The notes below the pieces were generated by a model. That model made no database searches. It was not told where the DNA came from and saw nothing but the letters and a program-made list of their open reading frames with translations. A DNA stretch of 39,091 nucleotides from an uncultured Clostridia bacterium (GTDB lineage Bacteria; Bacillota; Clostridia; Christensenellales; CALMFG01), in NCBI GenBank assembly GCA_937863465.1, contig CALMFG010000003.1, positions 1-39,091 of the forward strand, in the 5' to 3' direction. A program made the position numbers and the translations under genes. Shown here piece by piece: positions 11,117 through 38,788 of the stretch (positions are counted from its first letter, which is position 1; every line of letters starts with the position of its first letter).

Positions 11117-12703
11117 CTAAGATTTCTGAAAATACGTCGAAGGCGAGATGCCCTCTTTTTTCTTGAACAATCGGCTGAAATAATTCGGATCGCTGTAGCC
11201 CGAGGCATAGCTGATCTCTTTAATCGAAAGTTCCCCTTTTTCTATCAGTTTCTTTGCATGTTCAATGCGCACGTCGGTTAAATGATCGATGAAGTTTTTG
11301 CCCATCTCCGCCTTAAAGAGGCGGCTGAAATACTGCGGACTGACGCCGAGTTCCCGCGAAATTTCATCCAAAGTCAGCTCGGTGTCGAACCGCTCCTGGA
11401 TGATTTCATTGGCTTTATCCACAATTACACTGATGCCATGTTTCTTAATCTGGTTGATCTTGGACGCAATGTAGCTGATTTTCTCCACGCACATCCGCTC
11501 AAAATCCACTTTGTTGGTGCAATTCAAAATCTGCTTGGTATACTCACAATACTCAATATACTGGTCGCTGTCAATTCCATTTTCCATCGCAATTCGATGC
11601 GCCACCACCATCACTTCGATCAAACGGTTGCGAATATGCTCTTTTTCGAAGAAATCCGGATATCGATTGAAGATATCCGTCAGTATACCGATGCACCGCG
11701 CGGTGTCGCCCCGCTCAATCGCCTGAATCAGTTTCTGCTCTTCAGCGAAAATCTCATATCCCATTTTCGGATTGTGCTGAATCACGTCGGCGATATGGGT
11801 GATTTTCTCGCCGTCGTCATAGTTCAGCGCGCGTGCCGCTTCCTGATAGGAGACGGCGATATCCTCGTCCGCTTTCGCGCCGCCAATGCCCACTTTGAGG
11901 CTGATATGAAATTTGTTTTCCAGTTTCTCGACCAGCCGTTCCAGAAAGTCGATGGCCTCGACGCGCCGTTTATACTCGTCGTCGTTTTTTTCGGACATAT
12001 AGACTACCACTCGGTCGATGACCAGCGGGCCTACCACACATTTGTTTCGATATTTCAGTTCATCGCGCAGCATCGGATAAAATGACTGGTTCTTAAAGCT
12101 TTCCTCCAGCCGCACTTCGCCGAACGATTCTTTCCGGCTTTTTACCTGGATGATGAAGATATATCCAACTTCACTGGTAATCTCAAACAGTTCCTTGTAA
12201 TGCTTAAAATCCACGCGTCCGGCCTGCCCGAGCATAAAGGTATAGATAAAGCTGTGCTCCACCACCGCCTGCATCTTCTCAATTTTCTCTTTGGTTTCCA
12301 GCTCCTGATCCAGCTTGCGGCGCTCTTCGTCCAGCTCCTTTGTCACCTGCTCCAGCGTATCGACCAGCTGCTGTTTGGTCACGGGTTTGGTGATGTAGTC
12401 GCTCACACCCAGTTCCACCGCCTGCTTGGCGAAATCAAAATACTCGTAGGCCGAGACAATGACAAAGCGCACATTTTTATGGATTTTCTTAATCTCTTTA
12501 ATCGCTTCCAGACCATTGATGCCGGGCATGCGGATATCCATCAGAACAATGTCCGGGCGTTGCTGACGCGCTTTCTCTATCGCCTCGCGTCCCGATTTGG
12601 CAATCTCGGTTACCTCAATATTGCTGATTTCTTTTTCGACGATATATTTGACCGATTCAATCGCAAGATTCTCATCATCGACGACCATCAATTTATATCT
12701 CAT
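11117..12703 (-). CDS. YesN-like response regulator, receiver plus AraC-type DNA-binding domain
   Basis: A 528-residue two-component response regulator. The receiver is at residues 1-120, with acidic residues in VVDDEN, phospho-acceptor Asp in VLMDIRMPG and Lys in ITKPVTK. A coiled linker and a middle domain of YesN type (about 140-400) follow. Two AraC helix-turn-helix motifs lie at the C-terminus (LTLDEISRELGVSPQYFSRLF and IKEISYASGYSDPNYFSRLF). It overlaps the kinase gene by 11 bases, so both are made together. YesM/YesN systems usually activate carbohydrate-uptake genes; the adjacent ChvE/MmsA/MmsB importer is the obvious target. Confidence 0.95.
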   Translation of the reverse strand: MRYKLMVVDDENLAIESVKYIVEKEISNIEVTEIAKSGREAIEKARQQRPDIVLMDIRMPGINGLEAIKEIKKIHKNVRFVIVSAYEYFDFAKQAVELGVSDYITKPVTKQQLVDTLEQVTKELDEERRKLDQELETKEKIEKMQAVVEHSFIYTFMLGQAGRVDFKHYKELFEITSEVGYIFIIQVKSRKESFGEVRLEESFKNQSFYPMLRDELKYRNKCVVGPLVIDRVVVYMSEKNDDEYKRRVEAIDFLERLVEKLENKFHISLKVGIGGAKADEDIAVSYQEAARALNYDDGEKITHIADVIQHNPKMGYEIFAEEQKLIQAIERGDTARCIGILTDIFNRYPDFFEKEHIRNRLIEVMVVAHRIAMENGIDSDQYIEYCEYTKQILNCTNKVDFERMCVEKISYIASKINQIKKHGISVIVDKANEIIQERFDTELTLDEISRELGVSPQYFSRLFKAEMGKNFIDHLTDVRIEHAKKLIEKGELSIKEISYASGYSDPNYFSRLFKKKEGISPSTYFQKS

Positions 12704-20419: not shown

Positions 20420-21088
20420 TTACGGTTTGTCCACCATCTTGCATCGCACCAGCAGACGCCGGTTGCCGTTATAGATGCAGGTGAGCAGCGACAGCGCAGA
20501 ATCGCCACGATAGATGGTGAGTGCCTCGGTGTCGCTCGGCGTGATGATGACCGATTCATATACTTCATATGTATATACCGTGCCGTCATCCATGGTCAGC
20601 GTCACGCGATCGCCGCTGCGCAGTTCATCCAGTCGCCCGAAATGCGCCCCCGAAGCGAAGTTATGTCCGGTAATCACTGTATTCCCGATTTCCCCGGGCA
20701 AAGCCCCGCCGTAGTAGCACACCGAAACGCGAAGCGCCTCATCGCTCAGTCGCTCGATGACGGCGATGGAAAGATCAATCGCCGCAATATCTAAACGTCC
20801 CATCACCGGATAGCCTTCGATGGCTTCCGTGTCCGTGTTGATTTCGGCAGAGGAATACGTCTCGTTGGACGAGGACGCCGCAATCTCCTTTTCATAGCTG
20901 GTCAGCAGGCTGTCGGCGCGCTTCTGGGCGAAGTACCCTTTGCCCCAGATGACGGCCACTGTGATGATGGAGGCAATCAGCAGGACTCCCAGCGCAATGA
21001 GAAGCCAGGTCATCAATCGGTTTTTATCCAGCATGCGCCATTTCTCGGCCAGATCCAGCCTTTTTCTTGTCGTATATCGTTTTGCCAT
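20420..21088 (-). CDS. Class D-like sortase
   Basis: A 222-residue transpeptidase that joins LPXTG proteins to the cell wall. A cytoplasmic basic N-terminus and one membrane anchor (TWLLIALGVLLIASIITVAVIW) precede the beta-barrel. The catalytic His is in NTVITGHNF (near 142), the Cys in LLTCIYNG (near 203) and the Arg in NRRLLVRC a few residues on. The short size and TLLTC-type context fit class D better than class A or B. It starts 4 bases after the stop of the LPXTG-protein gene, so it is probably the dedicated anchor for that protein. The ribosome site is weak (GGTG), consistent with translational coupling. Confidence 0.9.
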   Translation of the reverse strand: MAKRYTTRKRLDLAEKWRMLDKNRLMTWLLIALGVLLIASIITVAVIWGKGYFAQKRADSLLTSYEKEIAASSSNETYSSAEINTDTEAIEGYPVMGRLDIAAIDLSIAVIERLSDEALRVSVCYYGGALPGEIGNTVITGHNFASGAHFGRLDELRSGDRVTLTMDDGTVYTYEVYESVIITPSDTEALTIYRGDSALSLLTCIYNGNRRLLVRCKMVDKP

Positions 21089-21092
21089 CGCG

Positions 21093-24000
21093 TTACACCC
21101 GCTGTTCTTTTTTCGTACGGTTCTGTGCGATGGTCAGCCAGATCAGCGCAGCCGCAACCGCCGCAGTGAGTCCGGCAAGAATCATCAGCCATGTATAGCT
21201 CTGTCCCGTGGACGGCAGTTCCGCATCCGATATGGTGATGGTGAACTGGATCGTCTGCCCGTCGGCCGTGTAGCTCACCGTGGTGTCACCCGCCCGAAGT
21301 CCCGTAAACACCGCGCGCGCTGTTGTAATGCTGGCGGAAAGATAGGTGTCATCATAGTACCATGTGCCGCCGGTAATATTGGGAATAATCTCAATACGCC
21401 CATCCTCATAAATGTCGCCGCTGGACGGAGAAATGCTTAACGACAGTGCGGCAGACCAGGCCGCATATAAAACCGTGTCGGCCGTCACTGTATCGGTGGC
21501 GAAGTTCCAGGCCGTTGTTCCCGAGGTATCGGTGTACCAGCCTTCAAAAACATATCCCGAGCGTGTCGGATTGCTTGGAACCACACTGATGAGCGATCCG
21601 TGGGCCACGGAATAGGTATCCACCGTCGCCGTTGAAGTCCCGCCGTTGGGGTTGAATGTCACGGTATGCATCACGTCGGTCCATCCGGCGTACAGCGTCA
21701 TAGCGCCCGTGACCGTATCGACAGTCGGGCTCCAAAGCGTCGTTAACGCCGCGTCGGTATACCAGCCGACAAAGACATAATTGGTGCGCGTCGGCGGTGT
21801 GGGCATGGTGTCAATGGTCAGCCCTACGCCGACCGAGACAGAGGACGGCACCGCTTCGGTATCGCCGCCGTTGCTGTTGAACGTAACGGTCACCAGGGGC
21901 ACATAACCCGCGTACAGCGTCACATCTCCGGTCACCACACCGGTGGCAAAATTCCAGGGTGTGGTTGCCGCCGCGTTGGTAAACCATCCCGAAAAAGCGT
22001 ATCCTGTCAATGTCGGTTCGCCCGGCAGGGGCGAAATCAGATCGCCGTAATGGACGGTCATGGTCTGCGGGTAAGCGGTCGTGTCGCCCCCGTTTTCGTC
22101 AAACGTGACGGTATAGGAATTGGCCGACCAGCCGGCATACAGAATCAAGTCGCTGGTCACCGCATTGGTGGAAAGATCAAACGAGATGGTCGCGGTCGAA
22201 TTGATGTACCATCCGGTAAAGGTATAACCCACGCGCGTCGGCGCGGTGGGCGCGGGAGAAATCAGTTCTCCCGTCATTACGGTCATGCTGGACGGGATGG
22301 CCGCGGTATCACCGCCGTTGCTACTGAAAACCACCGTGTGGCTTTGAATCCATCCGGCATACAGCGTCATCGCGCCGGTGACCGTATCGGTCGAAAAATC
22401 CCACCCGGTGGTGGTCGCTGCGGTGGTGTACCATCCGCTGAAGACATAGCCCGCGCGGGCAGGCGCCGTCGGCTGAGGCGAAATCAGCTGGCCATAGGCC
22501 ACCTGCATCGTGCTCGGAACCGCCAGACTGTCCCCGCCGTTTTCATTAAATGTCACCGTATAGGTCACGGCGGTCCATCCGGCATACAGCGTCATGCTGC
22601 TGTTCACCGGGCTTGAAAAGTTCCAGAGGGTTGCGGCCGCAGACGTGGTGTACCAGCCGCTGAAGGTATAACCTGCGCGTGTCGGGCTGACCGAAGGCGC
22701 GGTGACGGTTCCGCCGACCAGTGTTTGTTTATTGTTGGGTATTGCGGCGGTGTCCCCGCCGTTCTGGTCAAACGTGACGGTGCAGATGGAGGTCCATCCG
22801 GCGTACAGCGTCATGTCCGATGAAACGATATCCGTATCCATATCCCAAGCGTTTGTCGCCGCGGCATCGGTGTACCATCCGTTAAACTGATACCCCGGCC
22901 AGATCGGCGAAGTCGGCGTGGTGCCGATGGTCTGGTTTTCGACCACATCCACCGTGGTCGGCGAAGCGGGAACCGTACCGCCGTTTTCATCAAACGTGAC
23001 GGTATAGTACTCGGCGTATCCGGCGTACAGCGTCGTGTTTCGTGTCACCACATCGGTGCTGAAATTCCACAGCGTCGTCGTGGCCGAATCTTTATACCAT
23101 GCTTCAAACAGATATCCCGCGCGCGTCGGCGGCGTGGGCTGGGAAGGAATCAGCGTATTATACGGCACCGACATGGTGGCCGGAACAGCCGCCGTGTCTC
23201 CGCCGTTATTATTAAAGGTCACGGTGTAATTGTTTACGGTCCATCCCGCGTACAGCGTGGTGTTCGCATTGACCACATTGGTCGCAAAGTTCCATGCCGT
23301 GGTTGCGGCCGCGGTGGTATACCAGCCGCTGAACGTATAACCGGTGCGGGTCGGCGCTATGGGCTCCGGACTGATGACATGGCCCGCCACCACCACCATG
23401 GTCTGGGGGTTCGCCTGCGTGGTTCCGCCGTTATTGTTGAACGTCACCGTATAGGTCTGGGCCCACCTTGCGTACAGCGTGGTGTTGCCCAAAACGCGGT
23501 CGGTCGCAAAGTTCCAGGCCGTGACGCCCGCGGAATCGCGGCACCATGCGTCAAACACATAGCCGGTCCGGGTCGGCGCCGTGGGCTGGGAAGGAATCAG
23601 CGTATTATACGCCACAGTCATCGTGGTCGGTACGGGGTCGGTATCACCGCCATTGCGGTTAAACGTCACCGTGTAATTGTTCGGCGTCCATCCCGCATAA
23701 AATGTCACATCATCGGTCACCTGGAAGGTGGAAAAATTCACTTCGTTGATCAGGCCCGCTTCCATATACCATGCATCAAACGTGTACCCCGAACGCGTCG
23801 GTGCTGTGGGCAGCGGCGTCACATAATCGCCGTACGAAAAATTCATGGTCGCCGGATTAGCCGGTGTGGTTGCGCCCGGGCTGCTGAATGTGACCGTGTA
23901 GTCTCCAGCTATCCAGTGAACATACAGCGTCATATTTCCTGCAACCGTATCGGTCGCAAAGTCCCATTTGTTGGTATAAGTAAGGTCGGTATACCAGCCT

Positions 24001-26291
24001 TCAATCACATAGCCGGCCAGTTCGGGCTCGGTGGTGACATATGGCACCAGCGCGCCGTAGTAGACCACGCGCGAGGTTGGATTGGGCAGAGAGGTCCCGC
24101 CGTTTTCATTAAAGTACACGTTGAACGCCTGCGGGTTCCAGTCAGCGTACAGCGTCATATTGTGCAGTACCACATCCGTGGCAAAGTCCCAGTGGATGGT
24201 ACCTGCTGCGTCCGAACACCATCCGCCAAAATCATAGCCGGTTCGCGTCGGTACGGTCACGGGTTCAGTCAATGTGGTTTTATACGCCACCGTCACATCC
24301 GAGGGCACAGGCGATCCGCCGCTGCCGTTAAATGTCACGGTGAAGTTGCCGGCCCATCCGGCGTATAGGGTGAGCAGTCCCGATGCCGGAACAACATCCG
24401 TCGCAAAATTCCACAGCGTGATGCAGTCGGATTCGGTGTACCATCCCGTAAACGTCAAGCCGGTGTAGACGGGATCAACAGCCGGTTCGGTGACCAGCTC
24501 GCCCGGGCCTGCCATGCTGTAAGCCGGGTTGGAAGGCGTATCGCCCCCGTTCTCATCAAAGATGACGCCAGCCGTAAAATTGGCGTATATCGTTGCCGCT
24601 GTCGACGGGACAATGGTATAGGTCAGATTCGTGGACAGCACCGTGCCGCCCGAGTTGGTCCAGTTCTCAAAATCGTAAGTCGCGTTCGGCAGCGCAACCG
24701 CATAGAACGTGCTGGCCGCAATATTGTATAGAACGCCGAAGGTGCCAAGGCCTCTGGCCGTAACCGAAACCGGCGTTCCCGATGCCGTAATCTCGAAGGA
24801 ACGCAAGGTGTTGCCCAGCGCCTGCACCACATCCAAAGCCGTGTTCAGCGACACATCCAGACTGGTCAGGTCATTGTTTTGCAGGTAGGCGTAATCCAGG
24901 AGCAGGCAGTTGGAAAGGTCAATCGCGGTCAAGTTGTTATCGTTGGCACGCAGGGTTCTCAGTGCGGTATTGCTGGTGACGTCGATGGAGGTCAGAAGAT
25001 TGTTGTTGATGGTCAGGGTGGAAATCGCCGAACTACTGCCGACATTGATGGATGCCAGCTGATTGTAGGAAGCGATGACCGTGCTGAGGCTGCTGGATGC
25101 AGGCGTGCTTAATGAAGTCAGATTATTATTCTGTAAATCCAGATATTCCAGGCTGGTATTATTGGTCAGCGAAATGCTGGTCAGCGCGTTATCCGATATA
25201 CGCAGCTGAGTCAGTGCCGAATTGCCGGTTACGTCGACGGCGCTCAATGAATTATCGCTGGCATACAGATGCAGAAGATTCGCGTTGGTTGTTGTGTCCA
25301 GACTGCTGAGATTACAGCTGTTGGCGTACAGATACTGCAGTGCCGTGTTCGCCGTCAGACTAAGTGAGCCAAACGGGTTATAGCTGCACAGAAGATAGGT
25401 CAGCGCCGTATTATTGGTCAAATCAATACTGCTCAAATTATTGCCGCTGCAGCTGAGTGAATCCAGCGCGGAATTGGCCGAGACGTCCAATGTGGACAGG
25501 GAATTGGAGTTGCATTCCAGCGTTGTCAGTCCGCTTAAGCCTGAAACGTCCAGTGTGGAAATCGCGTTGCTGGTGACAATCACCGTTGTCAGACTGACAT
25601 TGGTAGACAAATCCAAAGCCGTCAGATCATTGTATGAGCAGGTGAGGCTGGTCAGCACATTCAAGCCGGTAAGATCCAGCGACGCAATACTGTTGCTTCT
25701 GCAGTCCAGTGCGGTGAGCGCGGTGTTGCTGGCTACATTCAGCGCTGTCAATCTATTGACAGAACAATTAAGGTTGGTCAACAACACGTTGTTGCTGACA
25801 TCAAGACTGGTTATACTATTGCTTCGGACATTCAAGGAAGTCAGCGACGAAAGGGTTGTCACGTTCAGGGAAAAAAGGTTGTTGCTGGACGCGTCCAGAC
25901 TGGTCAGCGCGGTATCGCCGGAAACCGAAAGACTGTCGATGCTGTTGGCACCGATCTGTAAACTGGTCAGCGCATCAAAGCCGCTCGCATCCAGATTGCC
26001 GTTCAAGCTGTAGTTTTCATACCAGTCAATGGCCGTCACGCGTTTGGAAGCGTCGCTGTTCCATGTGACGCCTGCCCAGGTTGTTGGGTCCGCGCTGTTA
26101 TAGGCCGCGTTCAAGAATGCGCCGTTGGAGGTGGTCCCGTTCGTCGACGTCTGATTTAAGAATGCCTGGATTTTATTGAAGTCGTTATCGTCGTAACCGT
26201 CTAAATTGCTATCCGCCGCATACACGCTGACGCCAGAAAACAGAATACAGAGTATCACAGCAGCCAAGAATATCGCGGATTTAACTTTCAT
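21093..26291 (-). CDS. Giant LPXTG surface protein with leucine-rich and InlB-type B repeats
   Basis: A 1732-residue cell-wall protein. Domain order: signal peptide (about 1-27); a short region with a calcium-loop-like DSNLDGYDDNDF; 19 leucine-rich repeats of exactly 21 residues (about 104-503; pattern LTSLDVSNNTALTxLxC); a divergent repeat-like linker; 14 B repeats of about 70-75 residues (about 574-1614), each with GY-F-GWYT and ending TLYAGW; an Ig-like domain; and LPSTG (near 1690), a hydrophobic helix and a basic tail. The ATG at 26291 is preferred to the GTG at 26294. Promoter 26338-26366. Internalin-type architecture suggests adhesion to a host or another cell, but no partner can be named. 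Confidence 0.93.
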   Translation of the reverse strand: MKVKSAIFLAAVILCILFSGVSVYAADSNLDGYDDNDFNKIQAFLNQTSTNGTTSNGAFLNAAYNSADPTTWAGVTWNSDASKRVTAIDWYENYSLNGNLDASGFDALTSLQIGANSIDSLSVSGDTALTSLDASSNNLFSLNVTTLSSLTSLNVRSNSITSLDVSNNVLLTNLNCSVNRLTALNVASNTALTALDCRSNSIASLDLTGLNVLTSLTCSYNDLTALDLSTNVSLTTVIVTSNAISTLDVSGLSGLTTLECNSNSLSTLDVSANSALDSLSCSGNNLSSIDLTNNTALTYLLCSYNPFGSLSLTANTALQYLYANSCNLSSLDTTTNANLLHLYASDNSLSAVDVTGNSALTQLRISDNALTSISLTNNTSLEYLDLQNNNLTSLSTPASSSLSTVIASYNQLASINVGSSSAISTLTINNNLLTSIDVTSNTALRTLRANDNNLTAIDLSNCLLLDYAYLQNNDLTSLDVSLNTALDVVQALGNTLRSFEITASGTPVSVTARGLGTFGVLYNIAASTFYAVALPNATYDFENWTNSGGTVLSTNLTYTIVPSTAATIYANFTAGVIFDENGGDTPSNPAYSMAGPGELVTEPAVDPVYTGLTFTGWYTESDCITLWNFATDVVPASGLLTLYAGWAGNFTVTFNGSGGSPVPSDVTVAYKTTLTEPVTVPTRTGYDFGGWCSDAAGTIHWDFATDVVLHNMTLYADWNPQAFNVYFNENGGTSLPNPTSRVVYYGALVPYVTTEPELAGYVIEGWYTDLTYTNKWDFATDTVAGNMTLYVHWIAGDYTVTFSSPGATTPANPATMNFSYGDYVTPLPTAPTRSGYTFDAWYMEAGLINEVNFSTFQVTDDVTFYAGWTPNNYTVTFNRNGGDTDPVPTTMTVAYNTLIPSQPTAPTRTGYVFDAWCRDSAGVTAWNFATDRVLGNTTLYARWAQTYTVTFNNNGGTTQANPQTMVVVAGHVISPEPIAPTRTGYTFSGWYTTAAATTAWNFATNVVNANTTLYAGWTVNNYTVTFNNNGGDTAAVPATMSVPYNTLIPSQPTPPTRAGYLFEAWYKDSATTTLWNFSTDVVTRNTTLYAGYAEYYTVTFDENGGTVPASPTTVDVVENQTIGTTPTSPIWPGYQFNGWYTDAAATNAWDMDTDIVSSDMTLYAGWTSICTVTFDQNGGDTAAIPNNKQTLVGGTVTAPSVSPTRAGYTFSGWYTTSAAATLWNFSSPVNSSMTLYAGWTAVTYTVTFNENGGDSLAVPSTMQVAYGQLISPQPTAPARAGYVFSGWYTTAATTTGWDFSTDTVTGAMTLYAGWIQSHTVVFSSNGGDTAAIPSSMTVMTGELISPAPTAPTRVGYTFTGWYINSTATISFDLSTNAVTSDLILYAGWSANSYTVTFDENGGDTTAYPQTMTVHYGDLISPLPGEPTLTGYAFSGWFTNAAATTPWNFATGVVTGDVTLYAGYVPLVTVTFNSNGGDTEAVPSSVSVGVGLTIDTMPTPPTRTNYVFVGWYTDAALTTLWSPTVDTVTGAMTLYAGWTDVMHTVTFNPNGGTSTATVDTYSVAHGSLISVVPSNPTRSGYVFEGWYTDTSGTTAWNFATDTVTADTVLYAAWSAALSLSISPSSGDIYEDGRIEIIPNITGGTWYYDDTYLSASITTARAVFTGLRAGDTTVSYTADGQTIQFTITISDAELPSTGQSYTWLMILAGLTAAVAAALIWLTIAQNRTKKEQRV
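21450..24570 (-). repeat. 14 tandem InlB B-repeat coding units
   Basis: Fourteen units of about 210-225 bases encode Listeria-Bacteroides (InlB B) repeats. Each has VTFNxNGG near its start, GYxFxGWYT in the middle and TLYAGW at its end. The units differ considerably in DNA and protein sequence, so the array looks old rather than recently amplified; units 5, 6 and 7 are among the closest to one another. Confidence 0.9.
24781..25980 (-). repeat. 19 leucine-rich repeats of 63 bases
   Basis: Nineteen consecutive 21-residue leucine-rich repeats occupy about 1197 bases without any insertion or deletion. Each unit has the form (T/S)ALTxLxxSxNxLTSLDVSxN. The strict 63-base period and Ser/Asn/Asp richness fit a long, shallow solenoid. 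Confidence 0.9.
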
Positions 26292-26337
26292 CACTTCTTT
26301 TTCCCCAATTCGCGCGTTGTAAAGTTATACACAGGAT

Positions 26338-31191: not shown

Positions 31192-31219
31192 ATTATATCA
31201 TTGTCTGGCGCGTAGCCAA
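31192..31219 (-). promoter_or_regulatory. Extended -10 promoter abutting the methyltransferase start
   Basis: TTGGCT, 16 bases, then TATAAT with a TG one base upstream (TGATATAAT) on the minus strand. A start seven bases after the -10 falls on the A of the methyltransferase ATG at 31185. Confidence 0.65.
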
Positions 31220-31252: not shown

Positions 31253-31277
31253 AAAAAAGAGCACATCCACTGTGCCC
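31253..31277 (-). terminator. Intrinsic terminator after the PAS/GGDEF/winged-helix gene
   Basis: On the minus strand GGGCACA and TGTGCTC pair over 7 positions with a 5-base loop, followed by TTTTTT. It lies 15 bases after the stop codon of the regulator gene. Confidence 0.75.
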
Positions 31278-31291
31278 TATGTGTTCGTTTT

Positions 31292-33883
31292 TTAAGATTT
31301 TCCGTTCATCTCTTCCAATATCGACAGCGTGTTCTCCCCCCAGCTGTAGTTGGTGAGATAAGCGCCCGGGAAATGCCCGCGGTTCTTGGCGCTGGCTGAG
31401 ACGTAGTCGTAGTAATCGCAGTCAAACTTCTCGGGTATTACCCGCCGGAGGCCGTTGATGCTCTCCAGGATGTCCTCGATGCCGAACTCAGCCAGAATGG
31501 TTTTCAGCCGCATCGCCACCTTGCGGTAACGGGACATGGTCAGCTCGTTGGCCGGTTCGTCCTCCCAAAGAAAGCTGATGGCGTCGCTGGCCGAAAGGAA
31601 TCCGCCGCGGCGATCCACCATGAGAGCCAGCAGTTCCTTGGCTTTTACCACCTTAAAAGGAATGGCCTGCCCATCCACAAACACATCAAAGTAACCGAAC
31701 GTGCGGATATAAATCCGCTTCTGCCCGTCCGCCTTGGGTTTAATCACCGGCGTCGTGTTCTTCACAGGTTCTGCCGCGTCCATATCCGAAGCGAAGAAGG
31801 CAAACTGCTGGTTGCCCATCTTTTTGGCCACGCACAGCGCCTGATCCGCTTTTTCATACAGCTCGTCATAGTCGCTAGCGTCCGTCGGAAAGATGGAGAT
31901 GCCGATGGTGGCCGACAGCGTCACGTTTTCGCTGACCTTCTGGGTCAGCGCGCTGCAAAGGATGCGCATCTGTTCGCGGAGCACCGCTTCAGCGGGTATC
32001 TCGTAGATGCAGAGGGCAAACTTATCGCCGTCCAGACGCGCCGCACTTTCACTGCGGATAGCCTGCAGGGTAATCGCCACGCTTTTCAGCATCTTGTCCC
32101 CAAACGCATAGCCGTAGGCGTCGTTAATCTCTTTTAGACTGTTCATGTCGATCATCACAAACGCGCCGAGGCCTTTTTCGCCGCCGTCCAACGCCTTGCT
32201 GCGCAAAAGGTCGGTAAAATACTCGCGGAATGCCGCGCGGTTGAGTAGGCCGGTCAGCGGGTCGCGCTTGGCCTGATCCATCAGAATCAGCTGGGAGTTT
32301 TTCTTTTCATTGATGTCGATGATATAGATGAGCACATGCTGATACCCCAGCGTGCTCGGTACTGCATACATATAGGTGATGCCCATCCACCGATAACCTT
32401 CGTAGCCGCCAAACAGCGCGCGCGAACGATAATCGAAGCTGATTTTGCGCTTGGACGACGACAAATCCTGCATGATTTTTTTGACGTCGTCATATTCCTG
32501 CATCATCGCCTTGTCTTCGGGATGCGCCTGCCGAACCAGCTCTTCGATGAGCTGGTCCAATGTAATCTGTTCGTCAATCACCGCGGGCAGAATATCGCTG
32601 CCCGAAGCCACCCGCTTGCCGGTGTCCATGTCGAACTCCAGCGCCAGCATCGCACCGGCCGTAATCGACCGCCGGAAGGACGCTTCCTTATCCACCGAGG
32701 CCAGCAGCTTGGCTTCGTTTTCTTTTTCCTGCGAGATATCGTCCGCCCGACCGACCACATGGCAGACCCGGCTCTTTTCGTCCGTTACGCTGGTGTACCG
32801 TAAGCGCCACCACCGATACCCTTGCCCATGGAAATCGGCCATGATGTCCAGCGCGTTGCTGCTGTGCGAACTTCTGGCTTTGCTTAGCGCTTCGCCGACA
32901 ATCGCCGTGCTGTCCGGATGGATGCGTTTGTCCTCCGACAGGTTCTCCAAAAACCGCGCAATACGGATATTCTTCAGCACACCTTCATCGGTAAAGATAT
33001 TATAATCCAAGATGTCGGTATCCATGTTGTATTCAAAGGTCACCACCTGTTCGCTTTCGCTCAAAATGCGGTAGCGTTCTTCCTGCCAGCTGCGTTTTGT
33101 GTCTGCCTCGGCCAGCGTCGAGATGTCCTGCATGGTGATGTAACACTGCGGCGCTTGTTCTTTGCGGCTGGTCAGCGTTCCCTGCACATGCAGCCAAATC
33201 CACACGCCGTCTTTTCGTTTTACGCTGATCCGGGCTTCCATAGTTTCCCCCGCCATCAGCGAACCAAAAAAGTGCGACGGAATCTGACCCAGCGGGTCGT
33301 CATCCGCCTTGGTTTTAAAAAATATCGGCTTCTTCTGCTCAATGCGCGCGTCCATCTCCTCACTGGTGTAGCCGAAGATGGCGCAGGCGCGGTCGCTTAA
33401 ATATGTGGGTACAATCTGCTCGCCAATCTCGAAGATGCCGATGCCCAGCGAAATATTTTCGATGATGCCCTGAAGCATCTGGTTTTCCTGTTCCAACTGC
33501 TGGTTATAGCGAATCTCTTCGTCGAAGTCCAAAAGCGAAAGGATGGCTCTTTCTGTCTCTCCCGTTTCATCCAGAAAATATCGCGACGAAATACACGTCC
33601 AGCTGTATCCGCCGTCCGCTGTTTTCAGCCGCAGGGTGATTCCTTCGTTGGTCTGCCCTGCCGATGCTCTGACTAAAAAATCGTGAAGCATGGAAAAATC
33701 GTCGGGATGAACGCCGCTGAGCGCATCGAAGTTAAGAAAAAGTTCTGTGGCGTCTTCACGGCTCATCGCATAATGTGTAAAGGATTCCGAAGCGGTGAAT
33801 GCTCCGGTTCGAATGTCCCATTCCAGTACCGTTGCGCCGAATCTCTGATTGTTGTTTTCTAATGCCGCGCTGTCTTTTGACAT
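31292..33883 (-). CDS. Multi-PAS, degenerate GGDEF, C-terminal winged-helix regulator
   Basis: A protein of 863 residues with no membrane segment. About four PAS-like sensor units fill residues 1-530 (for example MLQGIIENISLGIGIFEIG and YGYTSEEM-type loops, seen as FGYTSEEMD). A GGDEF-type domain starts at DPLTGLLNRAAF (near 540), but its signature is RLDGDKF instead of GGDEF and the usual His of NDxxGH is Tyr, so cyclase activity is doubtful. The last 140 residues (from RIYIRTFGYFDVFV near 724) read as an OmpR/SARP-type winged helix. The ATG at 33883, behind GGGGGAAAG, is preferred to 33913. It appears to be a single-gene unit. It may sense a small molecule and bind DNA, perhaps through GTP or c-di-GMP. 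Confidence 0.85.
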   Translation of the reverse strand: MSKDSAALENNNQRFGATVLEWDIRTGAFTASESFTHYAMSREDATELFLNFDALSGVHPDDFSMLHDFLVRASAGQTNEGITLRLKTADGGYSWTCISSRYFLDETGETERAILSLLDFDEEIRYNQQLEQENQMLQGIIENISLGIGIFEIGEQIVPTYLSDRACAIFGYTSEEMDARIEQKKPIFFKTKADDDPLGQIPSHFFGSLMAGETMEARISVKRKDGVWIWLHVQGTLTSRKEQAPQCYITMQDISTLAEADTKRSWQEERYRILSESEQVVTFEYNMDTDILDYNIFTDEGVLKNIRIARFLENLSEDKRIHPDSTAIVGEALSKARSSHSSNALDIMADFHGQGYRWWRLRYTSVTDEKSRVCHVVGRADDISQEKENEAKLLASVDKEASFRRSITAGAMLALEFDMDTGKRVASGSDILPAVIDEQITLDQLIEELVRQAHPEDKAMMQEYDDVKKIMQDLSSSKRKISFDYRSRALFGGYEGYRWMGITYMYAVPSTLGYQHVLIYIIDINEKKNSQLILMDQAKRDPLTGLLNRAAFREYFTDLLRSKALDGGEKGLGAFVMIDMNSLKEINDAYGYAFGDKMLKSVAITLQAIRSESAARLDGDKFALCIYEIPAEAVLREQMRILCSALTQKVSENVTLSATIGISIFPTDASDYDELYEKADQALCVAKKMGNQQFAFFASDMDAAEPVKNTTPVIKPKADGQKRIYIRTFGYFDVFVDGQAIPFKVVKAKELLALMVDRRGGFLSASDAISFLWEDEPANELTMSRYRKVAMRLKTILAEFGIEDILESINGLRRVIPEKFDCDYYDYVSASAKNRGHFPGAYLTNYSWGENTLSILEEMNGKS

Positions 33884-37648: not shown

Positions 37649-38788
37649 ATGAAGAAACATTTAGTAAAAATTAAAGAAGAGGGCGGACAGTCTCTGGTTT
37701 TGGCTGCTGTTCTCTTAGTTGTCCTGCTTGGCTTTGCGGCGCTGGCTCTGGATATCGGCATGATGAAGATGGCTGAATCCGAAATGCAAGCCGCGGCCGA
37801 CGCAGCCGTTTATGCGGCCGTCGAACAGCTTCCGAACGTATCCAACGCCACCAATACGGCGCTGATTTATGGCCAATTGAACGGCGTTGAAGCGGCGAAC
37901 ATCACCGTGACCACACCCTATAATGGCGACGCTGGTCAAATCGAGGTGGTCTGCACCAAACCCGTGCAATATACTTTTGCTAAAGTGCTGGGTTTCGATA
38001 GCGGCGTGGCCACGGCCCGCGCGGTGGCCGAAAAAGGCGGTTCTCCCGGCGGCGCGTTTGACTATGCTATTTTCTGTGGTTCCCCAACTATCGAATCGGT
38101 ACTATATGCTGTATCATATGTTGTGGGAGATATTCACAGTAATAACGATTTTACATTACGCGGCTCGCAAAGTGAAATTATCGGTGACGTCGAGGCGGTG
38201 TATGATGTAACTATCAGCGCCGCAAAAGTAACCGTCGACGGCAATGTTCAGGGAACACATCTTGACATCAATCAGAACAGCACTGTATCCGGTTCGCGAA
38301 TCACATCATCTGCATCCTACATTGCAATGCCTGATTTAACATCAGTGATGGCTGCAGCGATTGCTAATGCAGACCACAAATATTCTGGATATGGTAATTT
38401 CGGGGGAACTAATCTTACTTTCGATGGTTCTATATATGTGAATGGCGGTTTTGGTTGCTGGGGTGCGAACACCACATTCAAAGGTGCAATCTTGGCCACG
38501 GGTGATATTAACATATCCGCTACAAAACTCTATCTTCCTGGCACAGATGGCATTGCGCTTTATTCAGCCAACGGCAATATTGGGCTGGATGGCGAGGGTG
38601 CGGAAATTCATGGCATTGTTTATGCCCCTAACGGTAATGTCAGAGTAGGTGCAAAAACAAAAATATATGGTATGGTCATCGCCGACAGTATATCATTTAA
38701 TGGCGCAAAAATCGAAATCTATTACGATGACTCTTACTTGGATGCAGCTGGCATCGGCAACGGCGGTGAATCCAAGCTGATCGAATAA
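37649..38788 (+). CDS. TadG/TadE-like pilin-type N-terminus fused to a repetitive beta-rich passenger
   Basis: A 379-residue exported protein. Residues 1-60 match the TadE/TadG N-terminal domain: EEGGQSLVLAAVLLVVLLGF, then ALALDIGMMKMAESEMQAAADAAVYAA, a hydrophobic helix preceded by Gly-Gly and a Glu four residues on from it. The middle (60-125) is the usual TadG beta part ending ATARAVAEK. Residues 140-360 form short beta-repeats (GDIHSNNDFTLRGS, GDVEAVYDVTIS, GNVQGTHLDINQN, GAILATGDINISATK, GIVYAPNGNVRVGAK), resembling a polymer-forming or beta-helix domain. The usual Tad secretion genes are not in the window. Possibly a surface or spore/filament component; function unknown. Confidence 0.83.
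   Translation: MKKHLVKIKEEGGQSLVLAAVLLVVLLGFAALALDIGMMKMAESEMQAAADAAVYAAVEQLPNVSNATNTALIYGQLNGVEAANITVTTPYNGDAGQIEVVCTKPVQYTFAKVLGFDSGVATARAVAEKGGSPGGAFDYAIFCGSPTIESVLYAVSYVVGDIHSNNDFTLRGSQSEIIGDVEAVYDVTISAAKVTVDGNVQGTHLDINQNSTVSGSRITSSASYIAMPDLTSVMAAAIANADHKYSGYGNFGGTNLTFDGSIYVNGGFGCWGANTTFKGAILATGDINISATKLYLPGTDGIALYSANGNIGLDGEGAEIHGIVYAPNGNVRVGAKTKIYGMVIADSISFNGAKIEIYYDDSYLDAAGIGNGGESKLIE

Follow-up and report, generated by a model that had tools for sequence, protein, structure and literature searches.

The 39,091-nt window (the whole stretch analyzed, positions 1 to 39,091 of contig CALMFG010000003.1 from the uncultured Clostridia bacterium GCA_937863465.1) encodes an 863-amino-acid protein that joins an N-terminal PAS array, a GGDEF domain with a broken signature, and a C-terminal winged helix of the SARP/OmpR type (31292..33883, minus strand). 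It has the makeup of a one-component PAS-type regulator, with a PAS input and a DNA-binding-type output in a single soluble chain. Such a soluble one-component regulator is the best explanation of the protein and probably the correct one: the PAS array would sense a cytoplasmic signal, a conformational change would pass through a catalytically dead GGDEF fold serving as a structural or dimerization spacer, and the SARP-type winged helix would bind DNA. The spacer role is suggested by the loss of the signature in every GGDEF-bearing member of the family and by the absence of the domain from commoner relatives. This GGDEF-winged-helix family is real and apparently undescribed, a variant of known one-component regulators; no mention of a catalytically dead GGDEF combined with such a winged helix turned up in the literature searched. 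As an example of a second-messenger enzyme domain made part of a transcription factor, the family is concrete and open to testing.

Domain architecture of the window protein

The open reading frame is intact and complete, running from an ATG at 33883, with a GGGGG-type ribosome site just 5′ of it, to a stop codon at 31292-31294; an alternative start at ATG 33913 would give 873 codons. The anatomy described in the initial annotation was confirmed. No receiver or kinase domain was found in the Pfam scan (there was no Response_reg match), as had been claimed, and no stretch reaches the hydrophobicity of a membrane helix, so that the protein is predicted to be soluble. Given this domain anatomy, the broken signature, and the type of winged helix, the proposal that signal and DNA binding are linked within one chain is still the best reading.

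The PAS array is partly secure. Unit 1 (residues ∼15 to 130; 33494..33840, minus strand) matched PAS_3 in Pfam with an E value of 2.9e-5 when scanned alone, and unit 2 (residues ∼132 to 262; 33098..33490, minus strand) did so with an E value of 6.7e-8, being placed at residues 160 to 249 in the scan of the whole protein. Unit 3 (residues ∼268 to 395; 32699..33080, minus strand) is weak, with a PAS_4 match at E 0.017 when scanned alone and a PAS match at residues 320 to 383 in the whole-protein scan; it is conserved with the related proteins L039, L208, L209, and L210. A fourth PAS-sized unit (residues ∼395 to 524; 32312..32700, minus strand) aligns in the same four proteins and is PAS by position only, having no PAS match in Pfam when scanned singly. 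This means that the "several PAS units" first reported amount to two solid units, a weak one, and a fourth assigned by position.

The C-terminal winged helix (residues 717 to 863; 31295..31735, minus strand) was recognized by phmmer, by the alignment of relatives, and by structure prediction. These 147 residues gave no Pfam or NCBIfam match above the cutoff, yet phmmer against the PDB found EmbR (E 0.004) and AfsR (E 0.1). In the AlphaFold model, the core has a pLDDT of >90 and the order strand-strand-helix-helix-long helix-hairpin, as in OmpR/SARP winged helices. Foldseek ranked AfsR first (1.5e-5; PDB 8hvr, a DNA-bound activator complex) and EmbR second (6.7e-5; PDB 2ff4), followed by OmpR/PhoB-type domains. 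The basic stretch of the recognition helix, R-Y-R-K-x-A-x-R-L-K, is nearly invariant in 40 relatives. The initial claim of a C-terminal OmpR/SARP-type winged helix was thus borne out. Only about 40 residues, modeled as low-confidence helices, lie between the wing and the end of the protein, and no BTAD (helical repeat) domain stands behind the winged helix.

The winged helix itself is a common, ordinary response-regulator output domain. A second copy in the same genome (L004, contig 59; 35% identity) serves as output domain in a receiver response regulator encoded beside a histidine kinase. The domain is present in 85 of 396 genomes of the order, mostly in open reading frames of ∼260 to 300 amino acids, and those inspected were receiver-winged-helix proteins. 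The long exceptions among these genomes are PAS-only proteins (G096, G283, and G381), NTPase-TPR proteins (G069 and G108), and one PAS-GGDEF protein (G390, L039). In the NTPase-TPR-like regulators (L048 and L047, respectively), which are ∼950 to 1,050 amino acids long, the winged helix of this type lies near the C terminus. This background bears on whether the domain might be a protein-binding module instead of a DNA binder. The domain has nearly equal numbers of basic and acidic residues (20 and 21), and it resembles solved SARPs weakly in sequence, as a protein-binding module would allow. However, the top structural match is bound to DNA, the basic residues of the recognition helix hardly vary, and ordinary receiver response regulators use the same domain as their output, all of which make a protein-binding role extremely unlikely. 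DNA binding by the SARP-type winged helix, as the modeled fold suggests, is the function that we infer.

The gene appears to stand alone. An intrinsic-terminator-like hairpin with a T run (31258..31278, minus strand) lies just past the stop codon, suggesting that the transcript ends there, and the next gene, encoding a methyltransferase, has a promoter-like site of its own that matches the consensus (TTGGCT-16-TATAAT with a TG before the −10; 31192..31219, minus strand). An operon with the downstream neighbors was therefore rejected, and the genomic place of the gene does not give its targets. Direct repeats upstream of the gene were short, two-copy, chance-like pairs and were also set aside. 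Further downstream on the same strand, and not adjacent, are a sortase gene and a gene for a 1,733-amino-acid LRR/Flg_new-repeat protein with an LPXTG-type anchor (20420-26294, minus strand). At 37649-38788 (plus strand) is a TadE/G-like protein that also matches DUF7305 and, weakly, bactofilin.

Decay of the GGDEF domain

GGDEF domains normally make the messenger c-di-GMP. The domain in the window protein (residues 538 to 692; 31808..32272, minus strand) is a clear member of PF00990 (E 2.7e-29), and its best solved relatives are diguanylate cyclases. Its signature reads DGDKF, as initially noted, and fails the pattern [AGS]G[DE]EF. It retains the metal-site Asp, the guanine-site Asn and Asp, the third-position Asp of the signature, and the AK lysine. 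The losses are the first Gly of the signature, its fourth-position Glu (now Lys), the Arg after AKxxG (the C-terminal GRN arginine), and the RxxD I-site, the position of which is occupied by RSES and is one residue shorter. These positions are assigned the roles that they have in the PleD-type active site.

Loss of the signature is general in the family. The eight fusions read DGDKF, ERDEF, GA-EF (shortened), EGDNF (twice), NDTKY, GFARF, and GLAEF. A canonical signature ([AG]GDE[FY]) was found in none of the eight compared to 27 of 36 unfused GGDEF domains from the genomes examined (Fisher P = 1.4e-4 by rows and 9.5e-4 counting six lineages), the unfused set being nonrandom, since it came partly from a degenerate-profile search, which should bias against canonical domains. 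It comprised 34 domains in the alignment and two read directly (L223 and L225). Of the nine noncanonical unfused domains, six are the second GGDEF of a protein whose other GGDEF is canonical, two read GGDDF, and one has diverged. L225, encoded on contig 86 of the window's own genome, has 337 amino acids, carries a degenerate GGDEF (RYDENVM), and lacks a winged helix. Losses at the metal, guanine-binding, and I-site residues differ among the eight fusions, and an RxxD I-site is present only in G554 and G665 (L161 and L162). Decay has gone least far in the window GGDEF, the only one to combine the metal Asp with both guanine residues (Asn and Asp) and the AK lysine. Since the fusions share no conserved set of binding residues, the domain is most likely a noncatalytic structural or dimerization piece. 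When the GGDEF-winged-helix part was modeled with AlphaFold, confidence in the GGDEF domain was low.

Two other roles for the domain can be weighed on these residues. One is that it is an active diguanylate cyclase despite DGDKF, the winged helix being a DNA tether or a second output. Most of the other catalytic residues are present, and in VCA0965 a noncanonical first residue can be tolerated (AGDEF, and the HGDEF or MGDEF mutants) (PMC3974145). In the same protein, however, most first-position substitutions abolish activity, as does E to A at the fourth position, which is K in the window protein (PMC3974145). DGDKF combines both changes, G to D and E to K, and the GRN arginine is gone as well, so that catalysis by the window GGDEF is unlikely, and an active cyclase is a very improbable reading of the protein as a whole. 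The other role, put forward in the initial annotation, is that of a nucleotide-gated transcription factor: the degenerate GGDEF would bind GTP (or c-di-GMP) without converting it, and its occupancy would control the winged helix. Because the metal and guanine residues and the AK lysine are kept, GTP binding by the window copy is possible. The two fusions with an RxxD I-site also carry EGDNF and resemble PopA, PelD, and CdgA, named as c-di-GMP receptors (PMC3974145), and c-di-GMP is probably present in the window's own genome, which encodes canonical GGDEFs and two EAL proteins. Against gating, the window protein has lost its I-site, and the other fusions have lost the metal Asp, the Asn, and the Asp in differing ways, which means that the family has no conserved ligand site; moreover, the commoner relatives have no GGDEF at all. 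Nucleotide gating is therefore not favored, and we regard it as unlikely. A catalytically dead GGDEF that serves as a structural or dimerization spacer fits the variable losses better.

Relatives, phylogeny, and gene neighborhoods

A scan of one genome per species (84,980 species) found 310 stretches that encode relatives of the PAS-linked winged helix. The best 80 of the 310 were mostly proteins of ∼650 to 700 amino acids, and among these 80 only L109, from Pseudoflavonifractor phocaeensis, has a GGDEF domain; a GGEEF string in L086 was rejected as such a domain. The closest and much commoner relatives are thus PAS-winged-helix proteins without GGDEF. Searches of the class, the phylum, and two families added the fusions G554, G665, G1152, G1337, and G1305. 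The survey of other Clostridia suggested at the outset thus brought the GGDEF-winged-helix fusions to eight, from about six lineages. The protein of G1152 (L208) aligns with the window protein over 858 residues (29% identity; E 3e-111). Its extra N-terminal PAS unit matches the PAS-only family (E 5e-9), and it therefore looks intermediate.

The winged-helix domain that forms the output of receiver-type response regulators appears to be a relative of this clostridial family. In a tree with receiver-type winged helices as the outgroup, the GGDEF-bearing proteins formed a basal grade outside a large GGDEF-less group, with moderate support from an alignment of only 140 columns. They mostly did so again in a smaller tree, and a single GGDEF clade is also compatible with the data (p-AU 0.20). 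If the grade is correct, the GGDEF domain would have decayed and then been lost, which we treat as a lead.

Gene order differs between the two groups. The GGDEF-less members lie mostly at the end of a fatty acid synthesis operon: acc, fab, or acyl-CoA-ligase neighbors, identified by Pfam, were found in 64 of 77 loci, with the gene at the 3′ end of the acc/fab operon (the 77 include L109, which has no acc, fab, or ligase neighbor). An acyl-CoA/AMP ligase occurs in 53 of these loci, in 40 of them at position −1, and accA occurs in 40, in 35 of them at −2; a thioesterase is downstream in 11. The GGDEF-bearing members appear mostly beside pilus, signal peptidase, or large surface-protein genes (loci L227, L228, L229, L109, L230, and L231). 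For instance, signal peptidase I and SpaA/LPXTG pilin-like genes adjoin the fusion in G554 and G1152, as identified by Pfam, and in G665, as judged by homologous genes. The L109 fusion adjoins a signal peptidase and a camelysin-like gene, and those of G1337 and G1305 adjoin a gene for a giant surface-type protein of 2,350 to 2,433 amino acids with SH3/SdrD_B domains. The G390 fusion has no pilus, signal peptidase, or surface-protein neighbor. Between regulator and signal peptidase, G554, G665, and G1152 share a gene for a coiled-coil-like protein of ∼160 to 200 amino acids (e.g., L227:7888-8484, minus strand, and L229:11622-12107, plus strand), which in L229 matches CheZ weakly.

From this gene order we infer the target genes, and because it proposes regulators of pili and of fatty acid synthesis in gut Clostridia, both cultured and uncultured, the family is of more interest than the single window gene. 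The PAS-winged-helix loci (L051 to L130, L232, and L233) are candidates for an undescribed regulator of fatty acid synthesis in gut Clostridia, a subject on which a targeted literature search returned nothing relevant. This role was not transferred to the window gene, as the acc/fab operon of its genome is elsewhere (contig 51, beside a MarR-like gene; genes named from their sequences by eye) and has no winged-helix relative. One history, which we offer only tentatively, starts from a PAS-GGDEF-winged-helix ancestor. Cyclase activity would have been lost in all lineages, the GGDEF domain would have been kept as a nucleotide-gated or structural relay in the regulators of pili and surface proteins, and a crown group would have discarded it to become a dedicated regulator of fatty acid synthesis in many gut Clostridia. 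If true, this would add a new class of fatty acid synthesis regulator beside FapR and FabT.

Position among known regulators

The window protein shares features with several known systems and differs from each. AfsR and EmbR, its best Foldseek and phmmer matches, have the OmpR-like winged helix in the SARP arrangement. In the window protein, however, the winged helix is C-terminal, the short tail past the wing takes the place of the BTAD/TPR domain, and the input is formed by PAS and GGDEF domains. The receiver-SARP-like response regulators of Clostridia, which we take to be of the COG3947/SAPR kind and which include L004, have a homologous C-terminal winged helix, whereas the window protein has the PAS array and GGDEF in place of the receiver and no partner kinase. 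The PAS-only relatives (L051 to L130) have the same winged helix (50 to 63% identity over the aligned stretch) and a PAS input but lack the GGDEF, and most are encoded at the 3′ end of acc/fab operons. In PopA, PelD, and CdgA, an inactive GGDEF serves regulation, as here. These receptors recognize c-di-GMP, typically with an RxxD motif that is absent from the window protein, and they lack a winged helix in such an arrangement. Finally, the PucR/CdaR regulators (MabR, Rv2242) and YesN-type proteins with GGDEF_2 (PF17853) likewise place, between sensor and DNA-binding domain, a GGDEF fold that lacks the A-site and I-site motifs. Pfam assigns their GGDEF-like domain to a family of its own, and the helix-turn-helix (HTH) is of the PucR or AraC type, compared to a recognizable PF00990 domain and a winged helix in the window protein. 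A dead GGDEF coupled to an HTH has a precedent in MabR/PucR, which is also the nearest structural one (PMC11617747). A second dead-GGDEF-plus-HTH regulator is encoded in the window itself (11117-12703, minus strand): a YesN-type response regulator composed of a receiver, GGDEF_2, and an AraC HTH, which adjoins a histidine kinase gene and the genes of a sugar-type ABC transporter.
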